Source of the DNA: Hallerella porci | GTDB lineage: Bacteria > Fibrobacterota > Fibrobacteria > Fibrobacterales > Fibrobacteraceae | Direction of reading: 5' to 3' | Assembly: GCF_003148885.1 (NCBI RefSeq) | Contig: NZ_QGHD01000010.1 | Coordinates: forward strand, 5,219 to 69,218 | DNA: 64,000 nt | Part shown: in pieces, positions 25,957 to 42,421 of the stretch | Position numbering within the stretch: the first letter of the stretch is position 1 | Layout: every line of letters begins with the position of its first letter | The notes under the pieces: model-generated | Databases searched by the model: none | What the model was told of the DNA's origin: nothing | Seen by the model: the letters and a program-made list of their open reading frames with translations, nothing else | Translations under genes and position numbers: made by a program

Positions 25957-28560
25957 ATGAAACACTCTTTTCTTTTTGGATTAACTTTTGCCGCTGCCGT
26001 GGCTTCGAGCTTTGCGGCGAATCGCATTGGCCCCGTTAGCCAATACGGTCAATTACAAGCAGGCAAAAATTCTGCGGGTAAAGGTCAAATTTACGGCTCT
26101 TGCCCGAGCTATTCGACATCGGGTAGCGAAGTCCAAGTGCAAGGCATGAGCTTGTTTTGGGCAATTGCAAGTGATGTGGGCGCTCCTTACTGGACATCGG
26201 ATATTGTAGATGGCCTTGTTCAAAAGCAAAATATTCAAATTATTCGTGCGCCGATGGGCGTTGACGAAGATTGGGGCGCAGGCAACTATTTTACAAATAC
26301 GGGCTACTATCAAGGTTTGATGGATGCCGTCGTGCAAGCGGCAATCGATAACGATATTTATGTGATTATCGATTACCATTCTCATAAAGCTCACGAAAGT
26401 GAGCAGAATGCCATAACTTTCTTTAGCACGATGGCGCAAAAATGGGGCAAATACGATAACGTCATCTTTGAAATTTACAACGAACCGAAGGAAACTTCTT
26501 GGAACGATATTAAAACTTACGCCGACAAAGTGATTCCCGAAATTCGCAAATATTCAGATAACTTAATTGTCGTCGGAAACCGCAGCTGGGACCAATACCC
26601 CAACGAAGCGTTGAATAATCCGATTAACGATAAAAACGTCGCTTATACATTCCATTTCTACGCAGGAACAGGTTCTAGTCAACACGAAATTAGCCGCGAA
26701 GGCAGAAATGCGGAGCAAGCGATGAACGGCGGCCTTTCGGTCTTTGTCACCGAATGGGGAAACTCAGCACCAGACGGCGCTGGAAGTGTTGTTGATTCGA
26801 GAAGCGCCGCTTGGCTAGATTGGATGAATCAGCATAAACTTTCGGGTGCAAACTGGGCTGTTTCGAATAAGAGCGAAACGGCATCGTATTTTGACGGTTC
26901 TGAGTGGAATTATTCCACGAGCGGAAATTGGACGAATACCAATATCTTTAGCAAACTCCCGAAATCTTACACCAAATGCAGCGGCACTGCGGTTAGTTCG
27001 AGTTCTGTTGCCACTTCGAGCAGTTCTTCGATGCCCGCAGGTTATACCGATTACATCGATGACTTTGAAGACGGCGATTCGCTTGCCTTTACCGGTGGCA
27101 TTTGGTACGCTTATACCGATGATGGTGACGACGGTTTATCGACCCTTTCGAACCCGACAACGGTGGATAAAAACGGTGAAAAAGGCTACAAAGTCGTATT
27201 TGCTGCCGATAACGGCACGAAGAATATGGCTGGCATCAAAGGCGTAAAGCTTTCTCAAGGTGGTAACACTTACGAACCGTATGTTGCGTTAGGCGTTAAA
27301 TTGAATGCTGACGAATCTGCATACGATCTTTCGAAATGCTCAACGATTAGCTATAAATATAAAGGCGCAGCGCATAACTTTAAAGCCGAAGACATGGCTG
27401 TTGGTGATTATGCTTATCACACCACATCCAAGGCAAATGCCAATAGTTGGACAACTGTCAATATTTCATGGAATCAACTGCTGCAACCGACTTGGGGCGA
27501 AGAAGTCACCCTTTCGAAATCTCGTATCAACAAATTCACTTGGGAAATCAAGGGTGACTTGAAAGGAACGCAGCCGACTTATAACTACTTGTATATCGAC
27601 GATGTGCGTTGCAACGGCATTGCAATTAAACCGGTTTCTTCGAGCTCTTCGGCAAAGTCGAGCTCCAGCGTCGCAAAGTCTTCCAGCTCTTCCGTTAAGT
27701 CGAGCTCTAGCGTCGCAAAGTCTTCCAGCTCTTCCGTTAAGTCGAGCTCTAGCGTCGCAAAGTCTTCCAGCTCTTCTGTTAAGTCGAGCTCTAGCGTATC
27801 AAAGACTTCCAGCTCTTCTGTTAAGTCGAGCTCTAGCGTATCAAAGTCTTCCAGCTCTTCTGTCAAGTCGAGCTCTAGCGTCGCGAAGTCATCGAGTTCT
27901 TCCGTCAAGTCGAGCAGCTCGGTGAAATCTTCTTCAAGCGTTTCGACTTCCTATAAGGTAACCGCAGGCAGTTTGAATCAAACAGTTCAAAAGGGAAAAT
28001 CCATTGAAACGGTTGTGATTGAAAATGTCACCTCGTTCAACCGCGAGTCTTGGAATTTGTCTTCGAACGGAACTTTTGATGTTCAACAGTCTGGTAACAA
28101 AGTGACGATTTCGGGTAAAGTCGAAACTTGGGCGCAGGCGACAGAAATTACCGAAAACTTCACGATTAACGGTGAAAAGGTCGCGCTCAATATCAAAGTC
28201 TTGAACTTTACTGAAGAATCGAGCAGCTCAGCAATTTCAAGTTCTAGCGAAACATCTTCGAGTAGTTCTGAAATTTCAAGTTCCAGCGAATCTGAAATTT
28301 CGAGCAGTTCGGAAGATTCCGAAGCGATTGCTTCGACAGGAACTGCACAGAAACTTTCTGTGGCTGTTGTCGGACGTTCTTTGGAAATCGCAAGCGCTTC
28401 GCCGGTGAATGTCACGGTCTTTGATATGCAAGGTCGTTTGATGAAGCAACTTCGCCAAGTGAATGGCGCAATTTCTCTCCAATCGCTTCAAACAGGCTCT
28501 TACATTATCCGCGTTCAATCGGCATCCGCCAACTGGACAAAGCGCATCGCACTCCGCTAA
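25957..28560 (+). CDS. Secreted GH5 endoglucanase with CBM11-like domain, Ser-rich linkers and C-terminal sorting-type domain
   Basis: 867 residues. Signal peptide MKHSFLFGLTFAAAVASSFA. The catalytic GH5 domain (about 25-325) has RAPMGVDEDW, VIIDYHSH, the acid/base Glu in IYNEPKE and the nucleophile Glu in VTEWGNSAP; it cuts beta-1,4-glucan. Next come a short Ser linker, a CBM11-like module (YIDDFEDGDSLAFTGG..., about 362-545), a long linker of 14-residue repeats of V-A-K-S5-V-K-S4 type, a small beta domain (about 665-755), another Ser linker and a terminal domain with VTVFDMQGRLMKQL ending KRIALR, like type IX sorting domains. Confidence 0.88.
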   Translation: MKHSFLFGLTFAAAVASSFAANRIGPVSQYGQLQAGKNSAGKGQIYGSCPSYSTSGSEVQVQGMSLFWAIASDVGAPYWTSDIVDGLVQKQNIQIIRAPMGVDEDWGAGNYFTNTGYYQGLMDAVVQAAIDNDIYVIIDYHSHKAHESEQNAITFFSTMAQKWGKYDNVIFEIYNEPKETSWNDIKTYADKVIPEIRKYSDNLIVVGNRSWDQYPNEALNNPINDKNVAYTFHFYAGTGSSQHEISREGRNAEQAMNGGLSVFVTEWGNSAPDGAGSVVDSRSAAWLDWMNQHKLSGANWAVSNKSETASYFDGSEWNYSTSGNWTNTNIFSKLPKSYTKCSGTAVSSSSVATSSSSSMPAGYTDYIDDFEDGDSLAFTGGIWYAYTDDGDDGLSTLSNPTTVDKNGEKGYKVVFAADNGTKNMAGIKGVKLSQGGNTYEPYVALGVKLNADESAYDLSKCSTISYKYKGAAHNFKAEDMAVGDYAYHTTSKANANSWTTVNISWNQLLQPTWGEEVTLSKSRINKFTWEIKGDLKGTQPTYNYLYIDDVRCNGIAIKPVSSSSSAKSSSSVAKSSSSSVKSSSSVAKSSSSSVKSSSSVAKSSSSSVKSSSSVSKTSSSSVKSSSSVSKSSSSSVKSSSSVAKSSSSSVKSSSSVKSSSSVSTSYKVTAGSLNQTVQKGKSIETVVIENVTSFNRESWNLSSNGTFDVQQSGNKVTISGKVETWAQATEITENFTINGEKVALNIKVLNFTEESSSSAISSSSETSSSSSEISSSSESEISSSSEDSEAIASTGTAQKLSVAVVGRSLEIASASPVNVTVFDMQGRLMKQLRQVNGAISLQSLQTGSYIIRVQSASANWTKRIALR
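27628..27915 (+). repeat. 42-bp coding tandem repeat (linker of GH5)
   Basis: GTCGC/GTATC landmarks at 27670, 27712, 27754, 27796, 27838 and 27880 are exactly 42 bp apart, encoding a 14-residue Ser/Lys/Val unit. Confidence 0.85.
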
Positions 28561-28580: not shown

Positions 28581-28612
28581 AAGGGCTCCCGCTTCGGCGG
28601 GGGCTTTTTTTA
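28581..28612 (+). terminator. Terminator after GH5 gene
   Basis: GCTCCCGC and GCGGGGGC with loop TTCG and a run of seven T. Confidence 0.85.
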
Positions 28613-28621
28613 ATGAGGAAT

Positions 28622-28712
28622 GAGCGCGCGGGTTTTGAGAACTTAGAGCTTAGAACTTTGATCTTAGAAACTCTAATCTCTAAACTCTAAGTTCTAAGAT
28701 CTCATTCAGACC
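28622..28712. repeat. Low-complexity CTTAGA/TCTAAG stretch
   Basis: About 70 bp are built from repeats of GAACTTAGA, GATCTTAGA and their complements (TCTAAGTTC, TCTAAGATC), making an imperfect inverted repeat. It directly precedes the 42-bp array. No gene. Confidence 0.5.
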
Positions 28713-29597
28713 TGCAAGAAGGCATTTTACTCGCCAAATGGGGCCATTCACTTTTGCAAGATGCCATTTTACCCGCCAAATGTGTCCATACACTTTTGCA
28801 AGGTGGCATTTTCCCCACCAAATGCGTCCATTCACTTTTGCAAGGTGCCGTTTTACCCACCAAATGGGTCATTGCACTTTTGCGAGATGCCATTTTACCC
28901 ACCAAATGTGTCCATTCACTTTTGCAAGATGCCATTTTTCCCACCAAATGTATCCTTGCACTTCTGCAAGAAGCCATTTTCCCCGCCAAATGGGTCATTG
29001 CACTTTTGCAAGGTGGCATTTTCCCCACCAAATGGGTCATTGCACTTTTGCAAGGTGGCATTTTCCCCGCCAAATGGGTCATTGCACTTTTGCAAGGTGG
29101 CATTTTCCCCGCCAAATGGGTCATTGCACTTTTGCAAGGTGGCATTTTACCCACCAAATGTGTCATTGCACTTTTACAAGGTGCCATTTTATCCGCCAAA
29201 TGGGTCCATTCACTTTTGAAAGGTGGCATTTTCCCCGCCAAATGTGTCATTGCACTTTTGCAAGATGGCATTTTCCCCGCCAAATGGGTCCATTCACTTC
29301 TGCAAGGTGGCATTTTCCCCACCAAATGCGTCCATTCACTTTTGCAAGGTGGCATTTTACTCACCAAATGTGTCCTTGCACTTTTGAATGGTGCAGTTTT
29401 GCCCGCCAAATGTGTCCTTGCACTTTTGCAAGATGCCATTTTCCCCACCAAATGTATCCTTGCACTTCTGCAAGGTGGCATTATCCCCGCCAAATGTGTC
29501 ATTGCACTTTTGCAAGATGCCATTTTCCCCACCAAATGTGTCATTGCACTTTTGCAAGGTGGCGTTTTACCCGCCAAATGGGTCCATGCAATTCTGC
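28713..29597. repeat. 42-bp tandem array, 21 copies, no indels
   Basis: The word CAAATG recurs every 42 bp from 28735 to 29575, 21 times, with no net length change. Each unit has a form of GGTGGCATTTTCCCCGCC, then CAAATG, then TTGCA-CTTT-TGCAA, a small hairpin perfect in many copies. Point changes are scattered, and variable columns fall in all three codon positions. Because 42 is divisible by 3, long frames are open on both strands (for example 28702-29637 minus and 28738-29619 plus), but none has a start with signals or a domain. I treat it as non-coding. It sits between convergent gene ends. Confidence 0.9.
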
Positions 29598-29643
29598 GGT
29601 TAAATTCCCTGACCCCTGACCACTGATCACTGCCCACTAACCA

Positions 29644-31203
29644 CTAACTCCTCATTCCTAATTTTAGCAGTTTTTCTTCTTGTTCAAAAATGGGCGGGCG
29701 ATTTTTGGCGGCGAGGTCGTTGCGGCGGCCGTAAATGTAATCCGTCATTTCAGCGAGAGTGTAGAGACGGTTAAAGTAAGCGATATTGGGGCCGGGGCAA
29801 ATGGCGACGGGGGCGGTGGATTTTTCTAAACCGAGAGCGATGAGCGCAGAATTGCCGAGTTCGTGGCAAATGCAACTTTTTTCGTAAACGCGGGCGATTT
29901 GCTGCTTTTTTTCTTCTTCGGACAAATCCGATTTCAAAATCGCAGCCACTTTCTGCTTTTGATATTCGCGGCTTGCAGTGCAAATGACGCGGTCTGTAAA
30001 TTCCGTATTATTTTGCAGAAATCCTTTGACGCAAATGGAGCCCGGATGACCTTCGCAAATTCTTTGCTTGCGGGCACATTCCGCGCTACTTGTCCGCAGA
30101 TTGCTAAACGGAACGCCGAGCGGAGACGCATGACTAATCCAAAAATCTTCTTCGGTCGCCGCCGCTAATTTTTTCCGCGTTTCGTCATCGACGAGAGTCG
30201 CTTCGGGGACGAGCAAAAAAGGCGTTCCCCAACCGCAGCGATTCATCCCAAAATCGCGCATCAGCATTTCGGATTCTGCGTAATTTCCAACGCCGCCTTG
30301 GACGCTGAATTGCGGCGTAAACGGAATTAAACGATTAACGTCCAATCCATTTGCCGCATAATATTTTTGCACGGCTCCTAAAAATTGCGAACCCAAACTT
30401 TCTTTCTTTTGTTTAATTTCACCGAGAATTTTCGGGAGAGTTTCGCCCGGCGAAGGGAAAAGATGCCCGCCGCAGTTCATTCCAGATTCGACGCGGAATT
30501 CGCTCACTTCTAAACCTTTCCGCGCGAGAAATTTTCCTTGAATCATCGCTGAACGAAAATCGGAAATTTTCAAAACAATTTTTTTGTCAAATCCGCCGTT
30601 TTGATTGCGGTAAAAACACGGATATTTTTCCATTTCCGAAAAAAGCGACTGATTGATTCCCGCGCTGAGAACGAGATGTGTATTGCCGCACAGTGTGGAT
30701 TCTGCGTAACCGCGAAGCGCTTCTTTGGCGTCGTCAAATCCGGGGCGGTCGAGCTTCACCATAATATTTACGTCGATTGAACCGACGCACATCGCTGCGG
30801 TTAAATTTTTTTCTTCGGCGGAGCGTTCCAAACCCGCGGGCATTTTTTGCCAAGCCAAATAACGAATCCGCAGCGGATCATCCGTCGGAAGCATTTGAAA
30901 ATAACGGTCTTTTTCGGAATTTCCATTCAAATTTTCGGCTTGAATGCGGGCAAAATTTTGCTGAACCAAAATATTTATCAAATTCAGATAACGGCGGATG
31001 CGTTCTGCGCGGGCGTGTTCTGTTTTCGGTAAAACTTTTTCGTAGGGAAGGGAAAATTTTTGGGCGTAAAAAATTCCCATTTGCTCGATGAGCTTATCAT
31101 CGACTAAAGAAATAACGGAATCGATTCCAAAATGCGCAATGCGTAACGGCGAATCATTGGTAAAACCGGTTCCCATGACAGGAACATAAAAACGATGAGC
31201 CAT
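29644..31203 (-). CDS. Conserved-type hypothetical protein, Cys-rich, possible TIM-barrel enzyme
   Basis: 519 residues, cytosolic. N-terminus MAHRFYVPVMGTGFTNDSPL, followed by HFGIDSVISLVDDKLIEQM. The middle has VLKISDFRSAMIQGKFLARK and ESGMNCGGHLFPSPGETLP, and later SVQGGVGNYAESEMLM and GWGTPFLLVPEATLVD, a pattern of strands and Gly-rich loops like an FMN-type TIM barrel. The C-terminal part is Cys-rich (AECARKQRICEGHPGSICVK, SCICHELGNSA, ICPGPNIAYFN). I recall similar uncharacterised proteins in Bacteroidota, without known function. Possible oxidoreductase with a metal or Fe-S site; not certain. Single gene, convergent with the 42-bp array. Confidence 0.65.
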   Translation of the reverse strand: MAHRFYVPVMGTGFTNDSPLRIAHFGIDSVISLVDDKLIEQMGIFYAQKFSLPYEKVLPKTEHARAERIRRYLNLINILVQQNFARIQAENLNGNSEKDRYFQMLPTDDPLRIRYLAWQKMPAGLERSAEEKNLTAAMCVGSIDVNIMVKLDRPGFDDAKEALRGYAESTLCGNTHLVLSAGINQSLFSEMEKYPCFYRNQNGGFDKKIVLKISDFRSAMIQGKFLARKGLEVSEFRVESGMNCGGHLFPSPGETLPKILGEIKQKKESLGSQFLGAVQKYYAANGLDVNRLIPFTPQFSVQGGVGNYAESEMLMRDFGMNRCGWGTPFLLVPEATLVDDETRKKLAAATEEDFWISHASPLGVPFSNLRTSSAECARKQRICEGHPGSICVKGFLQNNTEFTDRVICTASREYQKQKVAAILKSDLSEEEKKQQIARVYEKSCICHELGNSALIALGLEKSTAPVAICPGPNIAYFNRLYTLAEMTDYIYGRRNDLAAKNRPPIFEQEEKLLKLGMRS

Positions 31204-42266: not shown

Positions 42267-42421
42267 TCTCCGGAGTCCCGATGGAATAATTTTTCATGTA
42301 AAATGTTATCTCCGGACTTCCGATGAACAAATTTTGCGTGTAAAATGTTATCTCCGGAGTCCCGACGGACAAATTTTGCGTGCAAAATGTTATCTCCGGA
42401 CTTCCGATGAATAAATTTTGC
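42267..42421. repeat. 42-bp tandem repeat, 3.7 copies, alternating A-B-A-B
   Basis: TCTCCGGA occurs at 42267, 42309, 42351 and 42393, spacing exactly 42. Units 1 and 3 share GGAGTCCCGA; units 2 and 4 share GGACTTCCGATGA, so the higher-order period is 84. Unit 3 has a perfect ATTTTGC-GT-GCAAAAT palindrome. It lies between the zinc-finger gene and the secreted MBL-fold gene. Confidence 0.85.

Follow-up and report, generated by a model that had tools for sequence, protein, structure and literature searches.

A 42-bp minisatellite array of Hallerella porci is one of about 30 related intergenic arrays and is probably the variable core of a MITE/BOX-like composite repeat

The window array is a strictly spaced minisatellite that encodes no product

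Why does a tandem repeat between two genes keep a step of exactly 42 bp while its units diverge, and what kind of element is it? The question is raised by an array in a stretch of 64,000 nucleotides from Hallerella porci (this whole stretch is referred to as the window). A reading made from the letters alone (the sequence-only reading) had described 21 copies of a 42-bp unit in strict phase without indels, the units differing by point changes while the step stayed constant. This description was confirmed in both parts. Tandem Repeats Finder (TRF) reported a period of 42 with 20.8 copies (score 1058) at 28713-29587, the 21 copies of the motif CAAATG, the first at 28735 and the last at 29575, follow one another in steps of exactly 42 bp, and in the unit listing each full unit shares 34-42 of its 42 positions with the commonest unit and has 0 indels. 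Units are joined head to tail without any spacer, and a CRISPR array was ruled out because unique spacers between repeats are absent. The array lies between convergent gene ends, as had been noted; this is true of the window locus but is not a rule, as related arrays sit in tandem, divergent and convergent gene gaps. The array and its neighbours are:

25957-28560, plus strand: GH5-like cellulase gene, named from its sequence, absent at this place in four sister species
28713-29597, plus strand: 42-bp minisatellite array of subfamily F1, the subject of this analysis (TRF, unit listing, models R1 and R2)
29644-31203, minus strand: gene for a 519-aa protein, its 3' end apparently replaced by the element described below (orthologues in five sister species are 43-60 residues longer)

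Can the array encode a protein? Three long open frames span it, which would suit an unrecognised coding sequence of 14-residue repeats, but 42 is a multiple of 3, so that a stop-free unit stays open throughout, and the two strands have open frames simultaneously. Among the 87 changes in the window array, 9-29 were synonymous per frame against 12-24 expected, and for all F1 units 82-136 synonymous changes were observed per frame against 108-139 expected; no frame was consistently favoured or had a clear synonymous excess. The same test, applied in every frame, agrees with the earlier remark that the variable columns have no codon periodicity. Moreover, five of the six frames acquire stops through changes seen among F1 units, and in the remaining frame the consensus already contains one. 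A coding role, which has next to no probability, was rejected on the synonymous-change test and the simultaneous open frames: the array encodes no product. Our home-made gene caller wrongly labelled several F1 arrays as coding, and these labels were ignored. The GH5-like cellulase gene has a coding repeat of its own (27637-27915, 6.6 copies of 42 bp or 14 residues, in a serine-rich linker), with the same period as the F1 array and an unrelated sequence.

Related arrays are scattered between the genes of this genome

The window array is not a curiosity of a single locus; it is one of ~30 related 42-base tandem arrays scattered between genes. Its own unit, F1, forms nine arrays with ~100 units in all (4 to 21 per array): DNA similarity gave seven places besides the window, and a unit profile built from sequence added the ninth, on contig C7. 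With a superfamily profile of four homologous subfamilies (F1, F2, F3 and F7), at least 155 units were found at ~30 intergenic loci, 2-21 per array, and in the 25 arrays measured 175 of 177 spacings were exactly 42 bp. Nearly all copies stand in tandem arrays, and solo units are few. The window itself holds a second array:

42267-42421, minus strand: 42-bp array of subfamily F2 (GCAAAATTTGTCCGTCGGGACTCCGGAGATAACATTTTACAC), between divergent genes (TRF; model R2 matches on the minus strand)

The four subfamilies are homologous in phase, with 25 (F1-F2), 24 (F7-F2), 30 (F2-F3) and 22 (F1-F3) identities over 42 positions; for these pairs no alternative register or strand scores above 21. Their 42-bp period may simply be inherited. 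F7-type half-units stand at the edges of F1 arrays, a pattern that amplification of F1 within an older F7 array would produce. A tandem-repeat scan covered 854 kb of the genome and gave, outside long frames, 26 arrays (30-60 bp) that fell into several sequence families; the period was exactly 42 in 18 of them, a count from a non-random sample, because contig C1 (396 kb) was scanned whole and the other stretches were partly picked for their F1 arrays. Further arrays are F4 (43 bp, with a core in common with F7), F5 (42 bp), F6 (a loose 44 bp), F8 and F9 (41 bp) and F3b (41 bp). The 42-bp period is common but not universal among the arrays of this genome.

Some arrays have unusual surroundings or order. 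Two F3 arrays share one gap, ~220 bp apart, with CGTGTCATTCTGAG/GGATGACA palindromes between them (L065 17793-18650), and a palindrome repeat of this type flanks other F3 arrays too. A nine-copy array with 95% identity (L075 2807-3199) has the outer half of its unit inverted relative to F1 and adjoins an F1-like array of normal order.

The arrays are the proposed core of a composite element

We propose that the 42-bp array is the core of a composite made of a leader, (42 bp)n, a tail and inward-facing AWTKAGRAATGAG ends. At the window locus, its parts begin directly after a terminator-like site:

28583-28611, plus strand: Rho-independent-terminator-like hairpin and T-run of the GH5-like gene
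28612-28624, plus strand: left end motif AATGAGGAATGAG of the proposed composite, a motif enriched in array flanks and mostly facing inward
28633-28707, no strand assigned: leader, a palindromic heptamer block TTTTGAGAACTTAGAGC...CTCTAAGTTCTAAGATCTCATTC common to many array flanks (flank-to-flank blastn)
29598-29649, plus strand: tail, GGTTAAATTCCC followed by CACTAAC/CACTGAC heptamers, on the same side and in the same orientation at most F1 and F2 arrays
29650-29665, minus strand: right end motif (AAAATTAGGAATGAGG on the minus strand), from motif density and counts of the pattern ATTAGRAATGAG

By flank-to-flank blastn, 46 of the 62 array flanks share a module with the flank of another array. 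A palindromic TTAGAACTTAGAGC block often precedes the arrays, and the CACTAAC-heptamer tail follows F1 and F2 arrays with constant side and orientation. The end motif AWTKAGRAWTG occurs at 0.90/kb in array flanks, where it mostly faces inward, and at 0.053/kb in contig C1 (a 17-fold difference). Because this motif was picked after the loci had been inspected, the count in sister genomes is the fairer test: the sharper pattern ATTAGRAATGAG has 22 exact copies in this genome and 0 in five same-genus genomes, and a reversed control pattern also gave 0. Inward-facing AWTKAGRAATGAG ends are present at several loci including the window. As terminal inverted repeats these ends are imperfect: by simple shuffling, uncorrected for multiple testing, only seven loci had an inverted match between their flanks at p ≤ 0.01, the window locus stood at p = 0.06, and several of the inverted matches are heptamer or GC-rich modules, not the ends.

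Like BOX-type elements, the composites vary in how many tandem inner units stand between their end modules, and like MITEs they exist in many dispersed, non-coding, mostly intergenic copies (~30 loci, no coding signal). As the terminal repeats are imperfect and a target duplication is unreadable, we call the composite MITE-like, membership in the class being not established. On balance, the probable explanation is a non-autonomous MITE/BOX-like composite intergenic repeat that has the array, a minisatellite changing by whole units, as its variable core. Such a composite would consist, in order, of an end motif, a heptamer leader, (42-bp unit)n, a heptamer tail and the inverted end motif. It would have spread to ~30 intergenic sites in the lineage of this species, sometimes directly after the terminator of a gene, presumably through an IS-type transposase acting on the ends. 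Growth of the unit from heptamers (42 = 6 x 7) was also considered and rejected, since autocorrelation at 7, 14 and 21 is weak, with p 0.02 for F1 and no significance for the remaining subfamilies.

REP/BIME elements with RAYT are likewise intergenic palindromes in many copies, and the present repeats are short, palindromic, intergenic and numerous, as if they belonged to that type and were spread by a RAYT (Y1) transposase. This is very improbable, however, as nearly all of the units here are in tandem arrays with few solos, and one Y1 transposase gene is present here against 5 in the sister species G002 and 9 in G005, both without the repeats. With no correlation between Y1 gene number and repeats, a RAYT link is not supported.

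The proposed composite lies in a widened gene gap at one locus and truncates a gene at the window locus

In four sister species, NAD kinase is followed directly by the 519-aa gene in convergent orientation; at the window locus the GH5-like cellulase gene and the composite sit between them. The C-terminus of the 519-aa protein is KLGMRS, with the final codons and the stop of the gene supplied by the right end and tail of the element, and the orthologues run on for 43-60 residues in five sister species (~60 codons in the four with the NAD kinase neighbour). Judged from these sequences, the comparison shows that the right end of the element truncated the neighbouring gene. Two genes flank the C8 locus, one for a 769-aa protein and one rlmN-like. 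They are neighbours in every one of the five sister species and stand ~115 bp apart in four, compared to ~690 bp here (leader, array, tail). A short-gap sister site is thus present, but the sister sequences are too diverged for a target-site duplication to be read. In the fifth sister species, G005, ~1 kb of different repeats fills the gap, which suggests that this gap is a hot spot for intergenic repeats; the filler is made of heptamer repeats and palindromes (L220 2580-3609). Synteny gave no information at two further loci, C15b and the second one on C10, as the gene from the far side of the array was not found beside the query gene in sister species. Any effect of the composite on the host is most likely incidental, through insulation of neighbouring genes and copy-number variation.

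The family is lineage-specific and resembles known composites in layout

The structure-aware model R2, which has at least 155 matches in this genome, found no match in 36 relatives, five of them of the same genus, and R2 superfamily units were absent from 1.11 Mb scanned in three of the relatives (0.24-0.44 Mb of each). Because R2 gave none, weak single-unit matches of model R1 in relatives (E 0.002-0.08) were taken as chance. Two exact patterns (F1; F2/F3) had 0 matches in 84,980 species genomes, a set that possibly lacks the window's own genome, and the F1 pattern had none in viral contigs. Sister species G005 carries intergenic 41-bp arrays that are unrelated in sequence, and 400 kb of G002 contained no intergenic arrays. 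None of the papers searched deals with such repeats in Fibrobacter. The best reading of this distribution is that the repeat family is lineage-specific.

The MIRU-VNTR loci of Mycobacterium tuberculosis are also dispersed intergenic tandem repeats of tens of bases, with units and flanks that differ from the present ones. In Porphyromonas gingivalis, BrickBuilt and 464/PgRS are MITE-like elements with 23- and 41-nt minisatellites; BrickBuilt has a leader and a tail, and the elements are intergenic, in ~10-20 copies, with no sequence relatives outside the species (PMC4596501). The likeness that we claim, a minisatellite inside a MITE-like intergenic element with leader and tail, is one of organisation, and the present unit differs in being 42 bp long with a dyad, several subfamilies and imperfect terminal inverted repeats. 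The BOX element of Streptococcus pneumoniae is a boxA-(boxB)n-boxC composite with a variable number of boxB units, for which transcription and effects on genes have been reported (PMC3049150). End modules, variable tandem inner units, dispersed intergenic copies of variable length and an inner unit that folds largely on its own are common to both, and here too we claim an analogy of layout. By this analogy, the family appears to work like BrickBuilt and BOX elements. This Fibrobacter-like genome would then carry a composite of the BOX/BrickBuilt type that spread recently, can truncate a gene and is so dense that the assembly breaks. The array loci are candidate strain-typing markers, and the arrays are a hazard for assembly and for gene calling, as long spurious open frames cover them.

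A dyad appears to be kept between subfamilies but not within F1

Does the unit have a conserved structure? The sequence-only reading had pictured conserved TTGCA/TGCAA hairpins, which did not hold up: the hairpin depends on a G and a C in two columns that vary, a combination present in only 26 of 79 units. RNAalifold found no consensus structure for the F1 units, whose pairing was no better than that of shuffled ones (760 vs 761.7 +/- 4.4). A different structure was seen when the consensuses of 15 arrays were put in a common phase, where they fill 42 columns with no gaps and AAA and TTT blocks are invariant in all 15. With the stems 1-6/35-40, 9-12/31-34 and 15-18/23-26, read from the fold of one family, 79.5% of cells are paired compared to 31-47% when the structure is slid, nine of the 15 rows being F1 or F1c. 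Double changes are found in 23 cells, compared to 2-6 slid and 10.0 +/- 2.4 shuffled, and RNAalifold unaided picks six of the dyad pairs, with an energy near zero. Within F1, the variable dyad pairs show no covariation at all. The dyad thus looks like a property of the superfamily, apparently kept by compensatory changes between subfamilies and not within F1.

These data also bear on a structured RNA or sRNA array, in which the repeats would act as a transcript, a folded RNA or an sRNA sponge. The plus strand folds better than shuffles (z -3.1), and the covariation between subfamilies and the pairs chosen by RNAalifold point in the same direction. Nevertheless, the minus strand reaches a z of only -1.5, covariation is absent within F1, and promoter-like sites near the array are not beyond chance. 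No Rfam family was matched, a single weak microRNA match on the flanking heptamer palindrome lying far below threshold. As palindromic DNA elements show the same covariation, we regard a role as RNA as quite improbable.

Copying of whole units can account for the 42-bp spacing

What, then, holds the units at 42 bp? Helical phasing, with four turns per unit and all units on one face, had been put forward and is unproven, given the 43-bp F4, the 41-bp F8/F9 and F3b and the loose 44-bp F6. Other periods or frequent indels in homologous arrays had been named in advance as its refutation, and by this test the sibling periods count against strict phasing, as do one 41-bp unit (C8) and register-breaking inverted blocks (C7, C11), the only departures among F1 arrays. 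The broader claim that something holds the spacing stands in part: a length constraint is plausible because four subfamilies align gap-free over 42 columns though F1 and F3 share 22 of 42, but a coding role and the conserved TTGCA/TGCAA hairpin can no longer be invoked.

Exact register is also given by whole-unit duplication without selection, and identical unit blocks recur. In the C15a array, units 3-5 are the same as units 7-9, the whole-block copying of a VNTR minisatellite. Units are 82% alike within arrays compared to 78% between arrays, and F3 arrays with equal-scoring units are cut by the ends of two contigs, C8 and C26 (L205 2261-2743; L206 1-95), which probably join inside one array. 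These observations fit whole-unit duplication by slippage or unequal recombination. In the composite repeat that we favour, the array would grow and shrink by replication slippage or unequal recombination between units, and since units are copied whole and in register in such events, the 42-bp spacing would be preserved. The dyad (outer stem, TGTC/GACA stem and inner hairpin) might promote slippage and in this way help the register.

Could a protein set the spacing instead? A dimeric or nucleoid protein on each 42-bp unit, with dyads ~21 bp apart and the spacing selected, would be in keeping with four helical turns per unit, with the lack of a net indel between subfamilies at 52-71% in-phase identity, with a dyad geometry kept by compensatory changes between subfamilies and with the AAA/TTT blocks invariant in 15 consensuses. 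We nevertheless consider such a phased array unlikely, as sibling arrays have units of 41, 43 and 44 bp, the register breaks in C7, C8 and C11, no single gene arrangement surrounds the arrays, and the dyad within F1 is conserved no better than chance. Moreover, the repeats are absent from all sister species and so are not essential. There is a small but real chance that selection acts on both the 42-bp length and the dyad in subfamilies that have diverged to ~50% identity, with a protein or a single-strand hairpin process reading shape and spacing and not sequence; if true, the selected length and dyad would make a shape-recognised bacterial satellite. Four diverged subfamilies with one period and one dyad offer a test of whether a minisatellite period is held by selection or by whole-unit copying. 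In contrast to the strict 42-bp arrays, the loose 44-bp array (L073 14405-14804) has T-runs of varying length and frequent indels.
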